DNA of 64,000 nucleotides from a virus, in IMG/VR virus record IMGVR_UViG_3300030049_000706, positions 1 to 64,000 of that record, one strand, 5' to 3'. Below the pieces are notes generated by a model. The model did not search any database. It saw only the letters and a program-made list of their open reading frames with translations, and was not told the DNA's origin. Positions within the stretch are counted from its first letter, which is position 1. The number at the start of each line of letters is the position of its first letter. The position numbers and the translations under genes were made by a program. Shown piece by piece: positions 2,093 to 64,000 of this stretch.

Positions 2093-3961
2093 TTATTTAA
2101 TCTCCGTATTAACCGTATCTGGTATGATGATCTTGGAGGAATTAATGATCTTGGGAAGAACTTCCTTAAATCGTTTGATCATCTCAGAATACGTTTCAAT
2201 TGGCTGTACCAATACAATATACTCAAGGTCTTCAACAGTAGGAGGAGTATCACTATAAGAAAATATAAGTGTTTTTAAAATAGTAGATTCGGAAAGATAA
2301 TAAGTTTCTTTGTTATTATGAAGTCTATAGCTGAAAATTTCTTCATCAAAATTAACATCTATGAGATCTTTTCTATCAATATCTGTATGGATAATTTCGA
2401 GAAGTTCTCTAAAGATGTGTGCGTATTGAGTAAATTTAGTACTGTATACACAGTTTAAATACATATTAGAAACACCATCAAGAATAAATCCAGATTCAAT
2501 ACTAGAGAGAACAGCACCAAATGAATCTTTAATGATCTGAAAATCTGTTAAGCACTCATAACGAGCACCAGATATCGTAATAATTTTTGGTTTAACACAA
2601 ACTAGCTTTCTATAGAAATTAATATATTCCCTTGCTAAGATATCATCATTGCCAGAATTAACTTGTTTATTACCAGAAGTGAGTTCTTCAATACGAGCTT
2701 TGAGTTCATCGACAAGTTCTGTATAGGGTCTAAACTTATTTCTGTTGAGATAAAATGGATGGAATCTATTGTTTGTCTTTTTATAAATATTATTGATTGT
2801 AATAAACTTGTCTTTATAATGAAACGAAGCATTCCGAATAATTGAATTCTCTAAAGGTTTATCATTCATATAGTTTTCAGCAACAGAATATTTACCAGAA
2901 CAAGCAAGAATAGCTTTGAATAATAAAGCACCCTTTCCGGCCATAACATTACCCATAGCTGTAATAGGAATGATTTTGTTCTTATGTTTACGATTATAAT
3001 TACGAGTAATATCATAAACTTGAGAATCAAAGTTGGGGCACATAAGAAGTAATGTATTTTTAAGTTCTTCTTCATTTGTAATTCTTGTCAAATATTCCAT
3101 AACCAGTGTATAATCCATAGAACCTGGAATAAGAGCGTCTTCAATAACAAGAATATCGCATTTCTTATATATGCACTGAGTATCTAGTTTATAGTTCATA
3201 TAGTCTTGGTTAAGTGTACCGTTAAACATAAAATCATAATTTTGTTCTTCAACTGTAAATCTCTCAGAGGTTTCAAATGGAATCTGATTAACTGTGAACA
3301 TACCATTAAATTCTTCAGGTAGGGATTCGACAACATCACAGATAGCTCTAGCAATCTGATGATCGAACTTAGAAGAAATCATAGCTTGGTTATATGCAAC
3401 AAAACGAATAGCTTCTTCTTTAGTAATATTAAAATGTTTAACAAGTGAAAATTCAGAATTGTCTATGGTAATGGCACCATCTTCAATACACGATTCGATA
3501 AAATCAATAAAGGCATTTAATTCATTAATGATTTCTTTGGATGATTTAATATCATTAGAAATAATATTTAGAAATTTAAAATTCTCACGTTTAATTCTAA
3601 AGAAATGTTCAATGATACTTAGGAAAATATACATAGTCGATGTAGTACCATCTTTAGCTTTATCATCAATTCTATTTCCAATATACTTCAACAGATCAGA
3701 GATGTGATGCTGAACTCCATTAGCATATTCAATAGAACTAATAATCGTAATACCATCATTCGTAAATAAATTATTATATTTTTCTCGATAGTTATTTCCA
3801 TTAAATAAAACAATCATAGCATCAGATGCATCGGGGCCACAATGTTCTGACAAAAGATCTTTCATTTTAACACATGTATCAATAACAAAATCAACAAACT
3901 TCTTACCACTGATAATATTTAAACTATTCTTATCTCTATTCAGATTTGTTTTTTCTGACAT
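2093..3961 (-). CDS. GroEL-like group I chaperonin (diverged)
   Basis: The 622-aa product aligns along its length with GroEL (about 548 aa). TNDGITI near residue 67 matches the TKDGV segment with ATPase Asp52. KDGTTS near 103 matches the DGTTT nucleotide-binding motif with Asp87. CDILVIEDALIPG near 268 matches an apical-domain strand. IIKDSFGAVLSSIESG near 476 matches VEDALHATRAAVEEG with Asp398. The three ATPase aspartates are therefore kept, although overall identity looks low. Phage-encoded GroEL-like chaperonins that fold phage proteins are known in some phiKZ-related phages. No GroES-like gene is visible here. The start overlaps the preceding frameshift extension by 26 bases, indicating co-translation within one operon. 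Confidence 0.8.
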   Translation of the reverse strand: MSEKTNLNRDKNSLNIISGKKFVDFVIDTCVKMKDLLSEHCGPDASDAMIVLFNGNNYREKYNNLFTNDGITIISSIEYANGVQHHISDLLKYIGNRIDDKAKDGTTSTMYIFLSIIEHFFRIKRENFKFLNIISNDIKSSKEIINELNAFIDFIESCIEDGAITIDNSEFSLVKHFNITKEEAIRFVAYNQAMISSKFDHQIARAICDVVESLPEEFNGMFTVNQIPFETSERFTVEEQNYDFMFNGTLNQDYMNYKLDTQCIYKKCDILVIEDALIPGSMDYTLVMEYLTRITNEEELKNTLLLMCPNFDSQVYDITRNYNRKHKNKIIPITAMGNVMAGKGALLFKAILACSGKYSVAENYMNDKPLENSIIRNASFHYKDKFITINNIYKKTNNRFHPFYLNRNKFRPYTELVDELKARIEELTSGNKQVNSGNDDILAREYINFYRKLVCVKPKIITISGARYECLTDFQIIKDSFGAVLSSIESGFILDGVSNMYLNCVYSTKFTQYAHIFRELLEIIHTDIDRKDLIDVNFDEEIFSYRLHNNKETYYLSESTILKTLIFSYSDTPPTVEDLEYIVLVQPIETYSEMIKRFKEVLPKIINSSKIIIPDTVNTEIK

Positions 3962-4388
3962 ACTTAATACCTTCCTTGTCTAATTTTTGTTTTCTTTGTT
4001 CTTCTTCATATTCTTTAATACGACGTTCATTATCTTCTATGATTATTTTTTCTAATACAGTAAATCTATGATACGTTAATTTCATAGTTTCTTTTAAGTT
4101 TAATCCAAACTTAGTATGCCATTCTGTATTGAATAAAATATTAGCTACCTTCTTATAAAGTTTATTAAACTCCCAATGCTTAGATCTATTATGAAAACCA
4201 ACATCTGACATATATGGTAATAGTGAATCAATATGAAGAGTTTCTTCATTAATAGCTTGTAATAGCGAAGTTCTTACAATACCGTAAATACCTCTTAAAT
4301 TTAATTCTCGAATAAGATTCTCTTTTTTATTAATACTTGCTTCTACTTCTTCTTGTGTAACATCATCAATCGAGTCTGCGACTGAATA
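3936..4388 (-). CDS. C-terminal extension reached by probable -1 frameshift
   Basis: This reading frame is open from about position 4424 and encodes a convincing, charged helical protein, but its first ATG (4211) is deep inside, lacks a ribosome site, and leaves about 60 well-formed upstream codons unexplained (ADSIDDVTQEEVEASINKKE and onward). It joins the upstream 553-aa frame exactly at a T TTT TTT heptamer. A -1 slip there would give a fusion of about 689 residues: 539 from the upstream frame plus 150 from this one. The end contains a strongly charged coiled-coil-like tail (RRIKEYEEEQRKQKLDKEG). The arrangement resembles the G/GT tail-assembly chaperones of other phages. An independent 91-aa protein from 4211 is the alternative. 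Confidence 0.65.
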   Translation of the reverse strand, partial: YSVADSIDDVTQEEVEASINKKENLIRELNLRGIYGIVRTSLLQAINEETLHIDSLLPYMSDVGFHNRSKHWEFNKLYKKVANILFNTEWHTKFGLNLKETMKLTYHRFTVLEKIIIEDNERRIKEYEEEQRKQKLDKEGIKYVRKNKSE

Positions 4389-6004
4389 AAAAAAGTGGTT
4401 TCGGGGTCCACCGTATAAAACCCTTCAGAATAGGTTTCAGGAGTATGACCACAATGAGGGCAAGATTTAACCGGATAGCAAATATGAGAAATCTCAGACT
4501 TACCAATAAACTTTTCAACATCTTGAGGAAGATTACATCCAGGATTACGCTTAAACAGAATAGATAAACCTTCATTAATAACAGATTCTTCAGTACTTTC
4601 TTTATTCACCTTACCATTCTTAACAATACGGATTTTACTAATATAGGGAACGTATGATTTAAATAAGGAATACTTCAAAGCAATATCAATTGAATCTCTA
4701 CGCTCTTTATCATTATTACCATGTTCTTGTGCAATGATTTCAGAAACAAAACGACGGCCATATTCAAGATATTGTTTAATAGACGGAATACTGAATTCAA
4801 ATTCAAACTGAACATTATCAGAAACAGTATAACGACCAGTGTCTTTGAACCCTAAGAGTTCTTGATACTTGGTATACATATCAGGAGTAACAGTTTTCAT
4901 GCTCTTAAGATTAAAGATATTATCAACCTTCATTTTACTAAAATCATTACGACGAAGTTTAATGATATTAATCAGTTCAGTGACAGAATTATTGCATGAC
5001 GTACAAACATAAGTATAATTATAACCTTCGGGATGCATAAGCGCCGCAAGTGTCAACATAATAACAGGATAATCAGTAATCTTAATATTTGAAATAAGAG
5101 TGTCTTCGAGACGCCAATTACTCAGATTAGTCCCAACTGTAGAATCTAAGAACAGACGAGTACCTTCTTCTTTAATAAAGAAATCATTAAACAAATAGAA
5201 AACAACACCAAGTTCACGACCATAAACATTAATAGATTCATAGGCATTATTAAAATATGCATTTAATTTATCCATATCAGGATGTGCCAATTCAATATTA
5301 AAACCACTATTCATAAGAGGAATACGCATACAGTCACTAACTTCGAACCTGACTTCATTAAGACCGTCAATAGAATCAATAATACGAATATCATTATGAT
5401 CAGTAGGTTTAACAGTATAGCGATTACCAAGAATACCTTTACCCTTATCATCGATATATGTAGGAGCAAACATACTCTTATTTTCAATATCTTTAATAGC
5501 TAATTGTCGGCGAATAGCTTCTGTTTCAAAAGGAGTATTATTCTGAGTACCACGTACTGTATTAATAAATGCCTGAGCGACAGGATCGGTATCGATCTTA
5601 TCTTCGGGAATATCACTGAAATAAGCATTCATTGCCTTAATAACATCTTCACTTTTCTGACCAATAAAATACCCTGTATTCTCAGCCATTAATTCAAAAT
5701 TAGCTTTATCGACAATATCGTTTTCAGTTTCCACTGAACCATCTTCGGCGATTTCGTCGTAGAAAGGCTCAGCTTCAACATCGTCGATATCATCAGAAAC
5801 AACAATAACTTTATTTTCTAAAGGAGTTTTATCAGAAGAATTATTAGTTTCATTATTTGATTCGAGTTCAGTAGTTAAAGATTCTTCATTACCACTAACG
5901 CTATTAACCACACCACCACTTCCACCATCCATGGTAAATGTTGGAGTTATTTTTAAAATATCTTTATCTAACAGATTATCAGTTTTGTTAGGATCGTCGG
6001 ACAT
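4343..6004 (-). CDS. Zinc-ribbon protein, baseplate-hub/tail-assembly candidate (T4 gp26-like)
   Basis: A 553-aa protein. The first ~100 residues are acidic, Ser/Asn-rich and probably disordered. The middle and C-terminal parts contain two CxxC pairs, C334-C337 (VCTSCNNSV) and C515-C518 (SCPHCGHT), likely binding zinc. The segment around YVCTSCNNSVTELINI followed by a long helical region resembles the CxxC core of the T4 gp26 baseplate-hub assembly family; this match is from memory and weak. A slippery T7 tract 14 codons from the end links it to the following frame. A ribosome site (AAGGGA) precedes the ATG. It lies in an operon with a chaperonin, consistent with an assembly role. Confidence 0.55.
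   Translation of the reverse strand: MSDDPNKTDNLLDKDILKITPTFTMDGGSGGVVNSVSGNEESLTTELESNNETNNSSDKTPLENKVIVVSDDIDDVEAEPFYDEIAEDGSVETENDIVDKANFELMAENTGYFIGQKSEDVIKAMNAYFSDIPEDKIDTDPVAQAFINTVRGTQNNTPFETEAIRRQLAIKDIENKSMFAPTYIDDKGKGILGNRYTVKPTDHNDIRIIDSIDGLNEVRFEVSDCMRIPLMNSGFNIELAHPDMDKLNAYFNNAYESINVYGRELGVVFYLFNDFFIKEEGTRLFLDSTVGTNLSNWRLEDTLISNIKITDYPVIMLTLAALMHPEGYNYTYVCTSCNNSVTELINIIKLRRNDFSKMKVDNIFNLKSMKTVTPDMYTKYQELLGFKDTGRYTVSDNVQFEFEFSIPSIKQYLEYGRRFVSEIIAQEHGNNDKERRDSIDIALKYSLFKSYVPYISKIRIVKNGKVNKESTEESVINEGLSILFKRNPGCNLPQDVEKFIGKSEISHICYPVKSCPHCGHTPETYSEGFYTVDPETTFFIQSQTRLMMLHKKK
4388..4394 (-). other. Slippery heptamer T TTT TTT (-1 frameshift site)
   Basis: In the zero frame the codons are ACT TTT TTT ATT. 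Slipping back one base gives TTT TTT TAT TCA and enters the downstream open frame. The zero frame ends 14 sense codons later. Confidence 0.65.
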
Positions 6005-33246: not shown

Positions 33247-34116
33247 TTAACCCATAGCGTAATAATTAGCTTCAGCATCTTCCTGCTGAGCCTGAATACC
33301 CATATCAGCAAGTTCATCAGGAATATCGCTAGCAACCGGAGTAGCAAGATTGTAATTAACACGATGCAAACCAAGACGATCGGCGATGATCTGACCAGCA
33401 ACTTTTGTATTATAATTATGTTGAATAAGACCAGTATAAGCAATAGATCTTTCAGGAACTTCACCATGAGAAATAGTACGTTTCCAACCAAAATTACTTG
33501 TTTCGGTCGGGAACATACAAGTGGAATAATAGGCATCAATAATGTTCTGAGGCTGCATTGTAGGATCAAACTGAATCCATAACACATCCATAGTAAATGT
33601 AGACAACAACATAGGATCGATAGCAGTATCGCCACCATTAATAGCAGACAACAGAGAGAACTGAGTATCAGGATCTCTAATCATCTTAATCCAATTATAG
33701 TGGAAATTCCAAACAACATTACCAACAATTTCATTCCATGTAAACTGTGGCGTAATCGCTGAGCGCTTAGACACGGTAGGAACATGGAGTGTCTGACCAT
33801 CGTGGCCAGCAGTAACATCAGTTGTTTCTAATGTAACATTAAAATCAATACCAGAAACTTCTTTAGGATGTTGTTCGATAAGCGCCTTAAGAATATCAAC
33901 CATACCATCAAATTGATAAAACATAGTAGGTGCCCGTGTGACAATGCCATATGTCGGGAGGAACACCTGCGGTGTCGCAGAATCGATATTGACGAGATTA
34001 ACGCCAAGACCATTCTGCGCACCAGCAGCAATGTTCACAACCTGATCAGCATCCGTCACAGCAGCAACGCCACCAAGATTGCTCAGTAAAGAGCTGGAGA
34101 GCGAGGCCAGTGACAT
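33247..34116 (-). CDS. Tail tube protein
   Basis: A 289-aa protein directly downstream of the sheath gene, the usual order for contractile tails. Sequence features fit tube proteins: short beta strands (FDGMVDILKALIEQH, FNVTLETTDVTAG, FTWNEIVGNVVWNFHYNWIKMIRDPDTQFS), and a WIQFDPTMQPQNIIDAYYSTCMFP segment like those of T4 gp19-type proteins. Codons are GC-shifted as in other abundant virion genes. The C terminus ends in an acidic tail. The identity rests on context plus pattern. Confidence 0.75.
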   Translation of the reverse strand: MSLASLSSSLLSNLGGVAAVTDADQVVNIAAGAQNGLGVNLVNIDSATPQVFLPTYGIVTRAPTMFYQFDGMVDILKALIEQHPKEVSGIDFNVTLETTDVTAGHDGQTLHVPTVSKRSAITPQFTWNEIVGNVVWNFHYNWIKMIRDPDTQFSLLSAINGGDTAIDPMLLSTFTMDVLWIQFDPTMQPQNIIDAYYSTCMFPTETSNFGWKRTISHGEVPERSIAYTGLIQHNYNTKVAGQIIADRLGLHRVNYNLATPVASDIPDELADMGIQAQQEDAEANYYAMG

Positions 34117-34133
34117 TATAGATTATCCCTTTC

Positions 34134-36140
34134 TTAAGAGGCAACATTCACTGAGAGAGTAGTATTCCAAACACGATTGCTACGATACCCAGAGAGGGCA
34201 ACTGTGACGCTAGAAGAGTTTCCGTTCGCCAAGTCAACTGTAGTCTGAGTAACCGTTGTAGCACTCGTGATAATGTTATTAAGAGCAGAGCTGATTTCAT
34301 TATCAATGGACTTTTGTATCTGTTTAAATAACGTTTTTGGCCTAGCATTACTTCCCGTAAAACTAGTCCATTTGTCACGAACAATATGTTTAACATAAAC
34401 AACGTAGTCAACAATACATTCGTCAGAGAGGAGTGAAGAATCTGTTGTATAAACAGTACGGAGATCAGAGTAAAAAATGACAGAGGGGGTAGCATAGCAA
34501 ATAATATTAGCGCCACAATCCCAAATCTCCTGAAGAACATCAGGGCTTTCCGGGATGTAATTGAATGTAGGCCGTTTGAAGACGGTGACTTCGCTTGCGG
34601 GGCGAGGTTTAGGCTCAGCCTTAATGGACGTCGTTCCATCGTAAATGCACCTTTTAATCAATCGGTCAAACGTGGCCGGAACATAGTTAGACCACGAGGC
34701 CGTTGTTCCGTCGTTGTTCAACTTAGCGCACTGACCATAGATAGAACCACGGCACGCCGGAGTTCCCATGATCGAAGATTCAGGATGAAGCAGAATGCGC
34801 TGACGCAGAGATGCCATCAGTGCAACATCCGCAGCAGCTGTATTTGGCTTAAGACTCACGTCCTGAGTAGCCATTGTCAACTGCACATCATCGCGAACAT
34901 TCATAACACCATCGATAATAGATAATTTATTAGCTAAAGCAAAACCAGAATCATAGAAATGAGTAATCGGATAACGATAAACATCCTGAATAGCCGGATA
35001 TGTAGTACCTTCGAGATAAGCAACAACTAATTCTTCAAACATGTTAACGGATGTATCGCCATCAGATCCACCCAATAAATAAAGTGTAACATCTTCATTA
35101 ATGACTTCGGCCGAATCAGAAGTAATGGTAAAGTGATAATAAGAATTATTGTTAGAATCCATACCAGTCATGATATTAATCAAATCAGCAGAAGATGTGA
35201 TTTCAGGAGAAACGTTGAGAATATCAGATGTGATCTTTTTAATATTGTCATTATAAGTACAAACATTGTAAGGGAAAGGATTCGCAAAGTTCGTTGTAAG
35301 TTCATCACTGATATCAAGATATTGTGTTGTATTGGGATTATAAGCATTATCAATAAAAGCAAAAGTCTGACTAGGACTACCATACATGTCATAAACAGGA
35401 GCAGAAATAGCAGTAGTCGGAGAAACATAAGAAGGAGCAAAGACATAGGTCATTGCGCCATTAACAGTTGACAACGAAGCAATGTTACCAGACAGAATAG
35501 AATTCGCCTGAGTCTTATCATAAGAAGAATCGTAATATAAGCTAAAACCATAATTGTTCATCAGAGATCCAACATCGGCCGCTTCGACGGCCATGATCGG
35601 ATATGTAGTATATGTAACACCACCATTCGATATTGTGTTCGGAGTTAATTCATCAAACTCTTCAGAATCTGTAAGTGCACGAGCAGTCCAATCTAATTCA
35701 TAACCATCAGCAGTAACCGAAGCACCATTGAGTGTCTGGGGAATAGGGTTACTATTTTCATCATAAACTAAAGCACCAGTTGCTGTACGCTGATACTGGA
35801 CGATTTGCGCCGGAGTCACCGTGCAGAAGATACCAAGAGTGGATTTTGTAGCGGCCGGATCAACCAGTCGAACAAAACAAATCTGCTGGTACTTGATAGC
35901 CTGATTAACAAACAGCGTCTGGTGATTGAAGAACTTCGAGGTGGTATTCAAGAAGCTCGAACCATAACTAGTCTGAATATCTGTCGTATCGCCGATCAGG
36001 GGAAAGTTAGGAACGCCCTTTTCAGTGAACGAGAACATAATAGGCAGATGTCGAGGCAGGACCGTGAAGGTCTGTCCAGATGCCGCAGAATTATCCTGAA
36101 CCTGGATATTCAGAGCATTAGGATATGTATATGTCGACAT
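34134..36140 (-). CDS. Contractile tail sheath protein
   Basis: A 668-aa protein. The N terminus shows the sheath pattern GVPNFPLIGDTTDIQTSYGS and FVNQAIKYQQICFVRLVDP. The C-terminal domain (RTVYTTDSSLLSDECIVDYVVYVKHIVRDKWTSFTG...) corresponds to the conserved sheath core with the extended C-terminal arm. Length matches T4 gp18 (659 aa). Codons are GC-shifted, typical of an abundant protein. AATGGGAG precedes the ATG, and it forms an operon with the tube gene. It shows that the phage has a contractile tail. Confidence 0.85.
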   Translation of the reverse strand: MSTYTYPNALNIQVQDNSAASGQTFTVLPRHLPIMFSFTEKGVPNFPLIGDTTDIQTSYGSSFLNTTSKFFNHQTLFVNQAIKYQQICFVRLVDPAATKSTLGIFCTVTPAQIVQYQRTATGALVYDENSNPIPQTLNGASVTADGYELDWTARALTDSEEFDELTPNTISNGGVTYTTYPIMAVEAADVGSLMNNYGFSLYYDSSYDKTQANSILSGNIASLSTVNGAMTYVFAPSYVSPTTAISAPVYDMYGSPSQTFAFIDNAYNPNTTQYLDISDELTTNFANPFPYNVCTYNDNIKKITSDILNVSPEITSSADLINIMTGMDSNNNSYYHFTITSDSAEVINEDVTLYLLGGSDGDTSVNMFEELVVAYLEGTTYPAIQDVYRYPITHFYDSGFALANKLSIIDGVMNVRDDVQLTMATQDVSLKPNTAAADVALMASLRQRILLHPESSIMGTPACRGSIYGQCAKLNNDGTTASWSNYVPATFDRLIKRCIYDGTTSIKAEPKPRPASEVTVFKRPTFNYIPESPDVLQEIWDCGANIICYATPSVIFYSDLRTVYTTDSSLLSDECIVDYVVYVKHIVRDKWTSFTGSNARPKTLFKQIQKSIDNEISSALNNIITSATTVTQTTVDLANGNSSSVTVALSGYRSNRVWNTTLSVNVAS

Positions 36141-59965: not shown

Positions 59966-60011
59966 GTTATTTAAACTATATAATAAAAAATTTTAAATGG
60001 TAATAAAAAAG

Positions 60012-60058
60012 AGTTAAGTATAGTGGCAGAGAGTAATATCTCTGTACGATAGTTAACT
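60012..60058 (+). terminator. Long imperfect hairpin terminator
   Basis: An outer stem AGTTAAGTATAGTG pairs imperfectly with the downstream CGATAGTTAACT side; the inner stem GCAGAGA / TCTCTGT closes on GTAATA. It is followed by TTTTTATTTT. Confidence 0.7.
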
Positions 60059-60083
60059 TTTTATTTTATCAGGAGAAATTATC

Positions 60084-60917
60084 ATGCTTGAAGAAGCAAC
60101 TATCCGTCAGAAAATTGGTGAAGATATCACCAACGTTACAAATGGTAATTTCGATGGACCACTCTGGGTCTGGAGAGATAAAAACGAAACAACAGGTGTC
60201 TTGGGGTTAATCTCTAAATTGAACCACCATATTCCCGAAGGGCTTGAGTATGCATGGTTTCACAATAGTGTTGAGAGATTTATTCAGGACCTTCTCTCAG
60301 CAAGTGATTGTAGTAATGAGTCATATGAGACGATTACCAGGTTTATCAACTCTGTTATTAAGGTCGGTACTGGTGGAGCCGAGTATACGATTTTCTACCA
60401 TACCCCATTCGATCGTATAACTGGTGCAGATTCATATCGCCCAGCTATTTTTACTGTAACCCCGGGTGTTTCCAATATCATATTGCATCACAACGTTCCG
60501 ACATATGACTGCCGGGCACGTGATGAATACATTAAAAATGGTTATGGAGATCGTGAGTTCTTCCGAACATATCGTCTCAGTGAGAAGCAGTTGAGTGATG
60601 GCAAATTCTGGTTTTTAAATGGAGAAGTCTTCGACTCTTCTGGAGAACCTGAGTTATTCACTCTTAAGATCGTCACGAATAATGAGGCCGATGTGACATC
60701 TGTCACGTTTCCCATTGATGATTATGTGACTGGAGAAATGAATGACGGGCATCTCATTATAACGCTCATCAATCCCGATAGAGTCAAGAACATTGATATC
60801 AATACCGACGACTTCTCATTTGCTGAACTCGGAGATGCTATTTTCAAACGTAAACGAGAGCTTGTCATCAACACCGGATACAAATATCCTGATCAAGCGG
60901 AGGTTATAGATGTCTGA
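60084..60917 (+). CDS. Hypothetical protein, 277 aa, GC-richer
   Basis: AGGAGAAATTATC precedes the ATG (common leader). A soluble alpha/beta protein with more GC-rich codons than most of the window. Segments: FDGPLWVWRDKNETTGVLGLI; FYHTPFDRITGADSYRPAIFTV; SDGKFWFLNGEVF. No family recognised. It overlaps the following small gene by eight bases. Confidence 0.7.
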   Translation: MLEEATIRQKIGEDITNVTNGNFDGPLWVWRDKNETTGVLGLISKLNHHIPEGLEYAWFHNSVERFIQDLLSASDCSNESYETITRFINSVIKVGTGGAEYTIFYHTPFDRITGADSYRPAIFTVTPGVSNIILHHNVPTYDCRARDEYIKNGYGDREFFRTYRLSEKQLSDGKFWFLNGEVFDSSGEPELFTLKIVTNNEADVTSVTFPIDDYVTGEMNDGHLIITLINPDRVKNIDINTDDFSFAELGDAIFKRKRELVINTGYKYPDQAEVIDV

Positions 60918-61086
60918 GAAAAAACCGATCCGTACTACAGAAGAGCTACTCGAAGCATGGAAACATCTTCGTAATGCAACTCCGAGAGAGCTTGCGGTTG
61001 TCGATCCTTACTTTCTTCCAGAAGTAATGTATCGCCTCAAGGAGATAAATGATGAACTTACAGATCCACATCTGTGGCCAACATGA
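60910..61086 (+). CDS. Small protein, 58 aa
   Basis: A short gene whose ATG overlaps the preceding stop region by eight bases; GGAGG in the upstream gene gives a ribosome site. The product (MSEKKPIRTTEELLEAW..., ending PHLWPT) is helical and charged. A perfect palindromic terminator follows after six bases. Function unknown. Confidence 0.65.
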   Translation: MSEKKPIRTTEELLEAWKHLRNATPRELAVVDPYFLPEVMYRLKEINDELTDPHLWPT

Positions 61087-61092
61087 AAGATA

Positions 61093-61124
61093 CTGATGCG
61101 AGACGAGATCTCGTCTCGCATCAG
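61093..61124. terminator. 32-bp perfect palindrome terminator
   Basis: Halves of 16 bases (CTGATGCGAGACGAGA), six bases after the stop. Confidence 0.8.
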
Positions 61125-61161
61125 CTACAAAAAAACACAATACTGGGGTAGGAGCATGATC

Positions 61162-61476
61162 ATGATTTCGCCTATATATCCACTAAGTCTAGTCTCTGTT
61201 ATTTTGATTTTTATTATTGTCTATAGAATTCTAATAGAATTGAAAGCGATTAGTGCCATTAATATGGGATTTTATCAAGGATTGCCGAGCACACATTTAC
61301 GCCAAGTAGAGCATGCTTGTATTGTTATCAGAACACCAATCTTTGAGAATGAACTCAAGTCCGTAGTTAGATGTATAAAGAACGATCTGTGGATACAGGC
61401 TATCTATCAAAATAAGAAATCAGATTATCCCAATATAGCAAGGTTTGCTAAATATCACAACATTGAACTAGAATAA
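61162..61476 (+). CDS. N-terminally anchored membrane protein, 104 aa
   Basis: Start chosen at the ATG seven bases after AGGAG (ATC-ATG context); an open frame continues upstream into the terminator but is rejected. A hydrophobic helix near residues 5-25 (PLSLVSVILIFIIVYRILI) is followed by a soluble region with two cysteines. Function unknown. Confidence 0.65.
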   Translation: MISPIYPLSLVSVILIFIIVYRILIELKAISAINMGFYQGLPSTHLRQVEHACIVIRTPIFENELKSVVRCIKNDLWIQAIYQNKKSDYPNIARFAKYHNIELE

Positions 61477-61490
61477 AGGAGTTTAAGCTT

Positions 61491-61769
61491 ATGACTCTTG
61501 ACGAAGAAGAACTTGAGCTAAGTAAACAGCTCGATAATATTTACATTGCTATTGTGAATGAATATCATTTAAGATCTCAGTATATAGTTAAACGATTATT
61601 TGAAATTAAGCAACAGAAGATTTTATTACAACCGCTATCTATATCGTTTGATGAAGTACAACCCTGTTATAATAAACAAGAATTTCTGGATCGGATGGCA
61701 CAGCTTCCAAAATTAGATGACTCCGAGAGTCTCTCTGCTATCTTTAAAGAAGAAGGAACATCATCATGA
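61491..61769 (+). CDS. Hypothetical helical protein, 92 aa
   Basis: AAAGGAG precedes the ATG. Acidic N terminus and a long helix (EEELELSKQLDNIYIAIVNEY; YIVKRLFEIKQQKILL). Its end overlaps the next ATG by four bases (ATGA). Unknown function. Confidence 0.65.
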   Translation: MTLDEEELELSKQLDNIYIAIVNEYHLRSQYIVKRLFEIKQQKILLQPLSISFDEVQPCYNKQEFLDRMAQLPKLDDSESLSAIFKEEGTSS

Positions 61770-61972
61770 AACAACTCACTATCTCGACGACATTCGATGA
61801 TGCACAGCATGAACTCGCACTAAAGGATGTGCTGGATAAGTCAATGCGGTGTGTAATCAATAAGCAGATGAAAGTGTTATTTGCAGACCCACATCTTGAT
61901 GTTTCTGATTGCCGGTGGTTTAAAGGACCCCCCGATCTATCTGCTGACACTAAGCTTATTCAAGGTGGTTAA
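61766..61972 (+). CDS. Hypothetical protein, 68 aa
   Basis: Coupled to the previous gene by ATGA; AAGGAAC upstream. A small helical protein (FDDAQHELALKDVLDKSM), GC-richer. Unknown function. Confidence 0.6.
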   Translation: MKQLTISTTFDDAQHELALKDVLDKSMRCVINKQMKVLFADPHLDVSDCRWFKGPPDLSADTKLIQGG

Positions 61973-62090
61973 TATTACCAAAGACGGCATAATGTGCTAT
62001 GACGGTATCCCTGACGATAATATCCTCGTCAAATCTCGCTTGGCGGCCGATGCCGAGATCCTTAAGGATCTCTTGAAAGAAAAAACATGA
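61965..62090 (+). CDS. Very small protein, 41 aa (tentative)
   Basis: A GTG start overlapping the preceding stop by eight bases is the best choice; the frame is open farther upstream but overlaps the preceding gene. The product (VNITKDGIMCYDGIPDDNIL... KDLLKEKT) is compact and GC-richer. No clear ribosome site, so coupling is assumed. Confidence 0.45.
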   Translation: MVNITKDGIMCYDGIPDDNILVKSRLAADAEILKDLLKEKT

Positions 62091-62160
62091 TCAAATATAT
62101 ACAAGATAAGTCCACTCTTTGAATTGTGTAATCAAACACAGTTCATTGGAGTATGACTAG

Positions 62161-62367
62161 GTGACTAAAGAACAAGAACTGAAGTTTTGGGATGCTTTGG
62201 GCGATGGCTCTGGCTGGCCTAAAATGACGGACGACCCAGAAGTCAACTTTGTGGTAGACTGGTTCGTGGCCGACAAAGACGATTGGGATTTCTCCTATAC
62301 CACATGGGACGAACTCCCTGAGGAGGACAAAATCGTCTACCGTTACGAAGCAGAGCATATGAAGTAA
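62161..62367 (+). CDS. Small, highly acidic protein, 68 aa
   Basis: Starts at GTG ten bases after TGGAG. About 20 Asp/Glu residues against about seven Lys/Arg, and five Trp (FWDALGDGSGWPKMTDD; WFVADKDDWDFSYTTWDEL). The strong negative charge and GC-rich codons recall DNA-mimic proteins of phages, but no specific family is recognised. Single gene before a terminator. Confidence 0.65.
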   Translation: MTKEQELKFWDALGDGSGWPKMTDDPEVNFVVDWFVADKDDWDFSYTTWDELPEEDKIVYRYEAEHMK

Positions 62368-62373
62368 AACTAC

Positions 62374-62403
62374 ATAGAGGATGTGCCGATGCACATCCTC
62401 TAT
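62374..62403 (+). terminator. Rho-independent terminator
   Basis: Perfect 13-bp arms (ATAGAGGATGTGC) around CGAT, then TTTTTTTATTTG. Confidence 0.85.
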
Positions 62404-62430
62404 TTTTTTATTTGTAGTCAATTATATTTC

Positions 62431-62446
62431 AAATATATATTATTAT
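62431..62446 (+). promoter_or_regulatory. Phage-type promoter AAATATATATTATTAT
   Basis: Motif preceded by ATTTC, lying 36 nt before the ATG at 62483. Confidence 0.7.
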
Positions 62447-62482
62447 TATGTAATGTTATAACAGAAGGTAAGGTGTACTAAA

Positions 62483-63040
62483 ATGTCTAACGTTGACAAT
62501 GATCTTGTCGCGCCACTCAATGCCAAATATATTGAACTTTATAAGGAGCTTGATAGCATACTTAAAGAGATCTCCGATGCTCAACTACGAATAACCAATC
62601 TCGATAGTGAGCGATTGGAACTTGTAGAACGAATCGCACATATTCGTAATACAGCGACCATGTTTAACATAACTTTGACAGAGGTGCTGGTAGAACAGGA
62701 TATCCCACCAACCGATACGCCAATCGATATCAGTCGGTGTGAGCATGATCTCGATATTGATAAGACTGGCTTTAATTGGTATAATAAAGTAGCTAATGAG
62801 GCAGTTTATCTCAAAAATGGTACTAAACTTACGTTTCTATATAAAGCTAAATCGTATTATGCAACAATAATTGATGGTATGCCTGTGACAGATATTGGTG
62901 GAATTAAATACTCATCTGTACCATTGTGGTACAAATCGGTAACTTCTGCTATCGGGAGTTCGATAGATAAAATATCCGTTAGACTCCCAGGCGATCCGGA
63001 ATGGATATGTGCTCGACGTCTGTTTCGACCTATATCCTAG
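62483..63040 (+). CDS. Coiled-coil protein with a RAMA-like C-terminal domain
   Basis: A 185-aa protein. Residues ~12-60 form a coiled coil (KYIELYKELDSILKEI, RLELVERIAHIRN). Residues ~110-182 (LKNGTKLTFLYKAKSYYATIIDGMPVTDIGGIKYSSVPLWYKSVTSAIGSSIDKISVRLPGDPEWICARRLF) follow the RAMA pattern: GTxL.YKxxxYxAxI..dG...GxxYsSx..a...v.g......w. RAMA domains are proposed to read modified DNA and often accompany DNA methylases and restriction systems. The function here is inferred only; it might sense the state of host or phage DNA. Early-type promoter upstream. Confidence 0.65.
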   Translation: MSNVDNDLVAPLNAKYIELYKELDSILKEISDAQLRITNLDSERLELVERIAHIRNTATMFNITLTEVLVEQDIPPTDTPIDISRCEHDLDIDKTGFNWYNKVANEAVYLKNGTKLTFLYKAKSYYATIIDGMPVTDIGGIKYSSVPLWYKSVTSAIGSSIDKISVRLPGDPEWICARRLFRPIS

Positions 63041-63055
63041 AAAGGTTAATGCCAG

Positions 63056-63081
63056 TGGAGTAGTCTATATAGACTACTCCA
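63056..63081. terminator. 26-bp perfect palindrome terminator
   Basis: Halves of 13 bases (TGGAGTAGTCTAT), followed by TTATTTTTTATTT. Confidence 0.85.
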
Positions 63082-63111
63082 TTATTTTTTATTTGTGATT
63101 AAGCATATTTC

Positions 63112-63129
63112 AGATATATATTACTTAAG
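63112..63129 (+). promoter_or_regulatory. Phage-type promoter with conserved leader hairpin
   Basis: AGATATATATTACTTAAG. The 41 bases from here are identical to those at 17129. A hairpin in the leader and CTTGGAG lie before the ATG at 63195. Confidence 0.75.
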
Positions 63130-63194
63130 TGAAACAAGTTTACTTCTTAAGTGAACTTTACTGGAATTACAACATACATCCTTGGAGTAACATC

Positions 63195-63956
63195 ATGGAA
63201 ACAGATACAAATACCACCATTTACACGACTATTATTTCTGGGGGTATCACTCCGTTGGTTAATTGGCCGATTTCTGGATTCGATAATGCTCGACGTATCA
63301 ATTTCGATCACGATCGTTATGAATTCGAAGTAGTGACAACCAATCCGAAAGATAAAGATCGGCGTATTTTTAAACCATCTGGTATAGATTGGGAATTCGC
63401 TGAAGAATACGTTGGTAAAATCGATGAATCTCCGCATGATACGTATGTGTCATTGTGGATGAGGCCCCGCCGTGAACTGAAAGACCTTAAGTTCGATAAT
63501 GATTATCGTCACTATATCTACCACCACGGAGTGGAGAATGTGCGATTTATCATTCCAGTTAAGCGACTTCAACAGATTCTGATGATCGCATTTACGACAA
63601 GCGATCAGCCTGAGACTGCTGCGGTTTGCAAAATCGTTGAGGGTTTCAATCGGACTGTTCTCGACAACTACAAGTATCAACTTCAGCCCATTGCACATGA
63701 GAATGCATCAGAAACGTTCTATGTTAGCGATCTTGTATCGCTGATGCGGGAACTTCCTGATCAGTTCATGATGGTCGACCATTTCAAGGCTGGCGATAAG
63801 GTCGTGATTTCTGAAACCAGACACGCCGTTCATGAAGTATTCAAGGTCGTTGATATCACGGATCTTACTGGGCGTAAGCACCATCAGGATGTATTTTTGA
63901 AAGAGATCCCTGATTGTGTGTTTTCTGGCGATAGTCTGATAAGAGCTTATAAATAA
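63195..63956 (+). CDS. Hypothetical early protein, 253 aa, GC-richer
   Basis: Start chosen after GGAGTAACATC-ATG; the upstream frame covers the leader hairpin and is rejected. Mixed alpha/beta protein with GC-rich codons. Segments: SGGITPLVNWPISGFDNARRI; YVSLWMRPRRELKDLKF; KAGDKVVISETRHAVHEVFKVVDI (a KOW/SH3-like strand pattern near residue 205). Function unknown. Confidence 0.7.
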   Translation: METDTNTTIYTTIISGGITPLVNWPISGFDNARRINFDHDRYEFEVVTTNPKDKDRRIFKPSGIDWEFAEEYVGKIDESPHDTYVSLWMRPRRELKDLKFDNDYRHYIYHHGVENVRFIIPVKRLQQILMIAFTTSDQPETAAVCKIVEGFNRTVLDNYKYQLQPIAHENASETFYVSDLVSLMRELPDQFMMVDHFKAGDKVVISETRHAVHEVFKVVDITDLTGRKHHQDVFLKEIPDCVFSGDSLIRAYK

Positions 63957-63965
63957 TGAGATCTG

Positions 63966-63987
63966 GGAGGGTGTAATTACACCCTCC
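63966..63987. terminator. Palindromic terminator
   Basis: Halves of 11 bases (GGAGGGTGTAA), followed by ATTTTTC. Confidence 0.8.
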
Positions 63988-64000
63988 AATTTTTCAATAA

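Follow-up and report, generated by a model that had tools for sequence, protein, structure and literature searches.

A short and a long product made from one gene by frameshifting are a hallmark of tail assembly chaperones, with a few per cent being the ordinary rate at such frameshift sites, and the chaperone gene usually, if not universally, lies beside that of the tape measure or the tail tube. Xu, Hendrix and Duda reportedly dealt in 2004 with the gpG/gpGT pair of phage lambda and with related frameshifted tail assembly chaperones. According to excerpts of the respective papers, gpG and gpGT occur at a ratio of 30:1 and neither is present in the virion (PMC5009743), and 7% frameshifting was measured for an HK97-like chaperone (PMC3711429). 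Excerpts of a study on the TAC-N/TAC-NC pairs of the Vandenendeviridae and Andersonviridae (phage Adele; PMC12846349) state that every genome of that study has an open -1 frame, that a GTTTTT motif is conserved in the Vandenendeviridae, and that the second part is usually annotated as a hypothetical gene. The same excerpts cite Vladimirov, Gautam and Davidson (2022; Virology 566:9) for poly-T shift sites in T4-like TAC-N genes. In T4 itself, gp26 and gp51 (PF12322, PHROG_150) are the products of two genes on opposite strands that are free of frameshifts, and both (208 and 249 aa) are far smaller than the jumbo-phage proteins described here.

Tail assembly chaperones made by frameshifting are well established; what is of interest here is how far the two-frame layout spreads through the phiKZ-like phages, and its tie to gp26/gp51. 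In the available parts of the literature searched, which included PMC5009743, PMC10885494, PMC5105663, PMC5694885, PMC13282480, PMC7909554 and PMC3711429 (papers on phiKZ, SPN3US and jumbo phages among them), we found no description of this frameshift in phiKZ-like phages. Some leads in the accessible portions of other texts proved unrelated: gp26 and gp51 of PMC6690015 are that paper's own gene numbers rather than T4 gp26/gp51, the frameshift of PaBG concerns dnaX and not a tail chaperone, and gp51 of PMC11948020 is a neck protein.

A two-frame gene in a phiKZ-like phage genome

The window, i.e. the whole stretch of DNA analysed, spans 64,000 nucleotides (positions 1 to 64,000) of the 67,981-base IMG/VR virus record IMGVR_UViG_3300030049_000706. 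Profile matches give it the marks of a phiKZ-like jumbo phage, namely a divergent family B DNA polymerase (PF20286, E = 4.9e-124), an RNA polymerase beta-type subunit (phrog_2962, E = 3.7e-89) and a GroEL-like chaperonin of 622 aa (2093..3961, minus strand; phrog_5725, E = 1.6e-21). The latter falls just under the Pfam Cpn60 cut-off (32.8 versus 34.3 bits) and is the phage chaperonin that a first-pass annotation of the window had correctly placed next to the gene considered here. A scan of genome contigs for the host returned no relative. GC content is 39-42% at positions 34001-36000 and 60001-64000, whereas most of the window lies at roughly 26-34%.

The 0 frame of the neighbouring gene (4343..6004, minus strand) starts with an ATG at 6004, ends with a TAG at 4345..4343 and encodes 553 aa, which the frame, profile and fold matches together mark as a putative T4 gp26-like short product; residues 223-549 match PHROG_4585 (E = 2e-36). 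Two CxxC motifs, CTSC (residues 334-337; 4994..5005) and CPHC (residues 515-518; 4451..4462), both on the minus strand, have cysteines (C334, C337, C515 and C518) that are nearly invariant among aligned relatives; together with the T4 gp26 profile match given below, they bear out the earlier description of a zinc-ribbon, gp26-like protein. Near the 3′ end of the 0 frame, a T TTT TTT heptamer (4394..4388, minus strand) lies in phase within the codons ACC ACT TTT TTT ATT, separated from the TAG by 14 sense codons. A slip at this site would lead into FF and a further 150 aa of the -1 frame (3936..4394, minus strand), for which relatives and domain homology speak. This frame is open from stop to stop over 4424..3936 (162 codons), and past the slip its first ATG, GTG or TTG does not come until position 4211 (an ATG, 61 codons on); a Shine-Dalgarno core is absent there as well as at the next start-like codon, at 4085. 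The predicted frameshift product (3936..6004, minus strand) counts 689 aa (539 + 150).

It was on these features that the first-pass annotation had proposed a programmed -1 frameshift, and the in-phase heptamer 14 sense codons ahead of the zero-frame stop, the 150 codons of the -1 frame with about 60 of them start-free, the ATG without a ribosome site and the fusion of about 689 aa all reappeared on recounting. It had also named a sequencing error in the seven-base tract as an outcome that would speak against the proposal. Five other IMG/VR contigs (with different UViG numbers, yet possibly from one study and hence not fully independent) carry the same seven Ts, a comparison of 8,000 bases showing 0 differences from the window in four of them and 1 difference in the fifth, and we therefore consider such an error unlikely.

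The slippery site and the -1 frame across relatives

Among 50,697 phage records, tblastn matched 29 with the window protein and 203 with its LucasX relative as query, the phages so found including phiKZ, PhiPA3 and 201phi2-1 as well as jumbo phages of Erwinia, Serratia, Klebsiella, Salmonella, Vibrio and Burkholderia. We compiled 131 sequences, comprising the window, 26 annotated phage loci picked for spread and 104 IMG/VR loci sought with 0-frame proteins only, and grouped them at 90% amino acid identity into 97 clusters. The two-frame layout was present in all 131 sequences, the -1 frame overlapping the end of the 0-frame gene by 46-514 nt and extending 341-533 nt beyond its stop; a homologue with a single uninterrupted frame, which the first-pass annotation had listed as evidence against recoding, was not among them. 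In each of the 26 annotated records, the -1 frame carries a second CDS, with PHIKZ077 (gp077) and PHIKZ076.4 (gp076.4) being the pair in phiKZ; if the frameshift is real, these genomes would present one recoded gene as two. The window 0-frame protein matched a profile of the other 0-frame proteins at E = 1.1e-29. Its -1 domain had no relatives in the phage collection by tblastn at E <= 10, and in IMG/VR it matched contigs of the same phage only; the link of this domain to other phages came via profiles (E = 6.8e-5, probability 64%, with reversed controls at about 0.4).

A canonical X XXY YYZ heptamer in phase was found in 80 of the 97 clusters (104 of the 131 sequences), in the form of T TTT TTT in 44, T TTT TTC in 32 and T TTT TTG in four. 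The 17 non-canonical clusters comprise 12 N TTT TTT A sites (N being A or G), four five-T sites (JHP1101, L056, L095 and L097) and one T TTT TCC site (L116). The two-frame layout is kept at five-T or T TTT TCC sites (L015, L056, L095, L097 and L116). Elsewhere in the 0 frames of the 97 clusters, T TTT TTN occurs in phase at a single one of 50,899 codon positions and any in-phase X XXY YYZ at 92, and phenylalanine is encoded by TTC 1078 times and by TTT 519 times. The presence of T TTT TTN at the site is more than chance. In an alignment of relatives that share 13-19% identity with the window protein, few columns are conserved to at least 90%, and the Phe-Phe pair belongs to them.

In layout, the arrangement is like that of lambda gpG/gpGT, with an overlap near the 3′ end, a predicted -1 slip and a putative short and long product, but no neighbour bears the name of a tape measure in the annotated phiKZ-like loci. 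The 12 N TTT TTT A sites recall the GTTTTT motif of the Adele-type chaperones; these, however, belong to other phage families, and the jumbo-phage sites are full heptamers in 80 of 97 clusters.

A downstream RNA structure or an upstream Shine-Dalgarno-like stimulator is common at -1 frameshift sites but not required. Over the 97 clusters, folding of the 60 nt downstream of the site is no stronger than elsewhere in these genes (mean z +0.20, SE 0.17), and Shine-Dalgarno-like motifs are not enriched upstream of it (4/97 versus 147/1,940 in the control). Since a stimulator is an optional feature, we did not take its absence to exclude a frameshift site.

Alignments of all relatives were too diverged for use in scanning. 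To count substitutions by -1 codon position, we took 34 disjoint pairs of relatives with identities of 55-96%; some pairs share a clade, and they are thus not all independent. The pre-start zone was defined as reaching from the 0-frame stop to the first ATG, GTG or TTG and was counted as long as at least one member was short of its own first start. Over its 598 codons, substitutions at -1 positions 1/2/3 numbered 122/95/259, resembling the rest of the -1 frame (954/646/2041 over 4,439 codons). Within the overlap (592 codons; 72/27/60), the rate drops to one third, and the position that is non-wobble in both frames is the most constrained. The -1 frame shows codon-type substitution ahead of any start codon, and so looks translated there.

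Likeness to T4 gp26/gp51 and to cyanophage proteins

T4 gp26 aligns with the 0-frame protein, and gp51 is a longer paralogue of gp26, so that T4 has a short and a long form. Against the 0-frame profile, gp26 scored E = 5.3e-5 over its residues 14-208 and E = 3.6e-5 in a second comparison, with the reported core of the latter match lying in the C-terminal zinc-ribbon part (residues 168-197); the best of six T4 control proteins was gp27 (E = 0.0062; 0.0069 in the first comparison). As gp51 came out little better than this control (0.0045 and 0.0011) and a cyanophage gp26 profile matched the jumbo 0-frame proteins weakly (E = 0.002, probability 14%), the sequence link rests mainly on gp26. T4 gp51 gave nothing against the jumbo -1 profile (E = 0.15).

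Within PF12322 (T4_baseplate), gp26 matches over residues 1-206 (8.8e-64) and gp51 over residues 1-201 of 249 (3.9e-52), which leaves gp51 some 48 residues more. Searches of this family gave no row for the window protein at E <= 0.1 and none for the LucasX, phiKZ and DT01 proteins at E <= 1. Because the Pfam gathering score is missed, we regard the 0-frame protein as related in manner and remotely in sequence, and not as a PF12322 member.

Structure prediction yielded a 0-frame model with a mean pLDDT of 72, confident from about residue 223 to the end, and an all-helical model of the -1 domain (mean pLDDT 79.5). Compared with predicted viral structures, the 0-frame model matched jumbo-phage proteins first and next T4-like baseplate hub assembly proteins (E = 3.5e-5, 1.8e-4 and 5.3e-4), followed by hub subunits of SP-15 and CP220 (4.1e-4 and 5.3e-4) and gp26 of Aeromonas phage 25 (0.041); chaperones of other phages appeared among its fold matches only at E above 1. 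Foldseek against the PDB gave no match below E 1 for either model, and sequence searches of the PDB with either frame or with T4 gp51 turned up no credible relative, the best hit being an unrelated protein at E = 0.039. By profile and predicted fold, the putative short product resembles T4 gp26. Genes 26 and 51 of T4 (L038:5803-7229) belong to one Pfam family and are adjacent on opposite strands.

T4-like cyanophages have an arrangement much like that of the jumbo phages. In P-SSM2 and Syn9, a T TTT TTC lies in phase within the overlap, with FFR at the junction, and the residues that match the gp51 tail sit in the -1 frame behind it. Here, however, the slip would occur two codons before the stop, the -1 part is about 70 aa, and either domain is only weakly linked by sequence to the jumbo proteins (E = 0.002 and 0.005, the latter value, from the -1 domains, having a probability of 7%). 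Of the 82 T4-like cyanophage loci examined, for which the listing covered 80 of at least 591 matches, 81 carry an in-phase T TTT TTC with a gp51-like -1 tail; the 82nd (L161) ends at the contig end, 41 nt past its stop. Overlapping gp26 and gp51-like frames can be viewed at L148:1477-2372, L149:1477-2390 and L152-L231. Given that Vladimirov et al. (2022) are cited for T4-like poly-T sites in the available part of PMC12846349, the cyanophage portion may already be in print.

The 26/51 arrangement of T4 looks as if two genes had taken the place of a recoded one. We tentatively entertain the possibility that one ancient recoded chaperone gene stands behind the contractile tails of both phiKZ-like jumbo phages and T4-like phages, with the T-rich -1 shift being ancestral and kept in the jumbo and cyanophage lineages and T4 26/51 stemming from a duplication that replaced frameshifting. 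The comparison would tie T4 gp26/gp51, the cyanophages and the jumbo phages to one short/long scheme that is testable in laboratory phages such as phiKZ and Goslar.

Proposed mechanism, alternatives and gene neighbourhood

Taking sequence comparisons, structure models and analogy together, we think it quite probable that the gene makes a short/long tail assembly chaperone pair by programmed -1 ribosomal frameshifting, which is the mechanism best supported by the sequence data. Most ribosomes would read frame 0 to the TAG and release the 553-aa short form, whereas a minority would slip back by one base on T TTT TTT, with tRNA-Phe re-pairing with TTT TTT in the -1 frame, and produce a 689-aa long form bearing an extra, predicted helical domain. 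Following the logic of gpG/gpGT, a phiKZ-like jumbo phage would have its tail assembly chaperone pair in these two forms: short copies in large numbers, along with a few long ones, may bind tape-measure or hub proteins, and the extra -1 domain may recruit tail-tube or hub parts, as gpG/gpGT do in lambda. We infer in this way the production of the fusion, the ribosomal nature of the slip, its rate, the chaperone function and the partners. A chaperone pair is proposed because of the kinship with T4 gp26 as the short form and with gp51 as its paralogue with a C-terminal tail, and the gene is thus a candidate tail assembly chaperone for phiKZ-like jumbo phages. The gene had at first been described as of baseplate/tail-assembly type; a tail assembly chaperone pair fits better than a baseplate-type gene, given the family-wide layout, the same logic in the cyanophages and the T4 gp26/gp51 paralogues.

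How the -1 frame comes to be expressed might be explained otherwise. RNA polymerase could add a U in the T run, so that altered messages are read into the -1 frame; the site consists of a homopolymer run, 5 to 9 Ts long, the search for a ribosomal stimulator came up empty, and phiKZ-like phages have their own polymerase, a subunit of which is encoded in the window. Yet 32 of the 97 clusters end in T TTT TTC and four in T TTT TTG, some having six Ts only, and four sites have five, and runs of six or five are short for transcriptional slippage as usually described. The T run also sits in phase with X XXY YYZ in 80 of the 97 clusters, although this is weaker evidence than it appears, as a protein-level need for FF in both frames may be what sets the phase. 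On balance, we hold transcriptional slippage to be improbable. GenBank instead shows two separate genes, the second of which would start at an internal -1 ATG, GTG or TTG, perhaps by reinitiation. Two CDS are present in every one of the 26 annotated records, a start-like codon exists in all 97 clusters at a median of 34 codons after the slip, and a Shine-Dalgarno core precedes 4/26 of the annotated second starts. These starts, however, are scattered, the extremes lying 26 codons ahead of the slip and 87 codons beyond it, Shine-Dalgarno cores occur at background level (3/97 clusters at the first -1 ATG versus 878/11,491 background ATGs; 19/26 at 0-frame starts), and the in-phase slippery site is conserved. 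A genuine start with a ribosome site, the remaining outcome that the first-pass annotation had set against its proposal, did not emerge, and since codon-type substitution also begins upstream of any start, we consider a separately started second gene disfavoured, reject it as the main reading and judge it very improbable. That the two frames were once one and have lost a base, through decay or mis-assembly, would fit a -1 frame that continues without a start of its own, but with the same break in 131/131 sequences and the T tract repeated in five contigs, this chance is practically negligible. Programmed -1 frameshifting, as first proposed, is supported by the conserved in-phase site, the two-frame layout throughout the set and the coding constraint in the -1 frame.

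Granting such a frameshift, the product could be a structural baseplate-hub protein rather than a chaperone. Labels in the records point that way ('baseplate hub' in MJ359, 'baseplate protein' in AH06 and 'putative baseplate hub assembly protein' in DT01), and among the neighbours that bear a name in the 26 annotated loci there is neither a tape measure nor a tail tube, many others being termed 'hypothetical protein'. A frameshifted short/long pair is nevertheless typical of tail assembly chaperones, gp51, the T4 relative, bears the annotation of a baseplate hub assembly protein and chaperone, and in the available part of PMC9024508 the authors of work on P1 mention proposed chaperone roles of T4 gp26 and gp51. 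We regard the structural role as rather unlikely. Fitting poorly with a frameshifted chaperone pair are the non-canonical sites in 17/97 clusters, the stimulator not found, the missed Pfam threshold, the weak likeness between jumbo and cyanophage -1 domains and the lack of a named tape-measure neighbour.

Downstream, the start of the window's chaperonin gene lies within the last codons of the -1 frame, in a 26-base overlap (3936-3961), and translation of the chaperonin might therefore be coupled to the frameshifted product. In Goslar, a protein annotated as macro-domain-like comes after the recoded gene (L012:5399-5959), and frames that look similar by eye follow it at L073:4515-4967 and L116:4221-4700.
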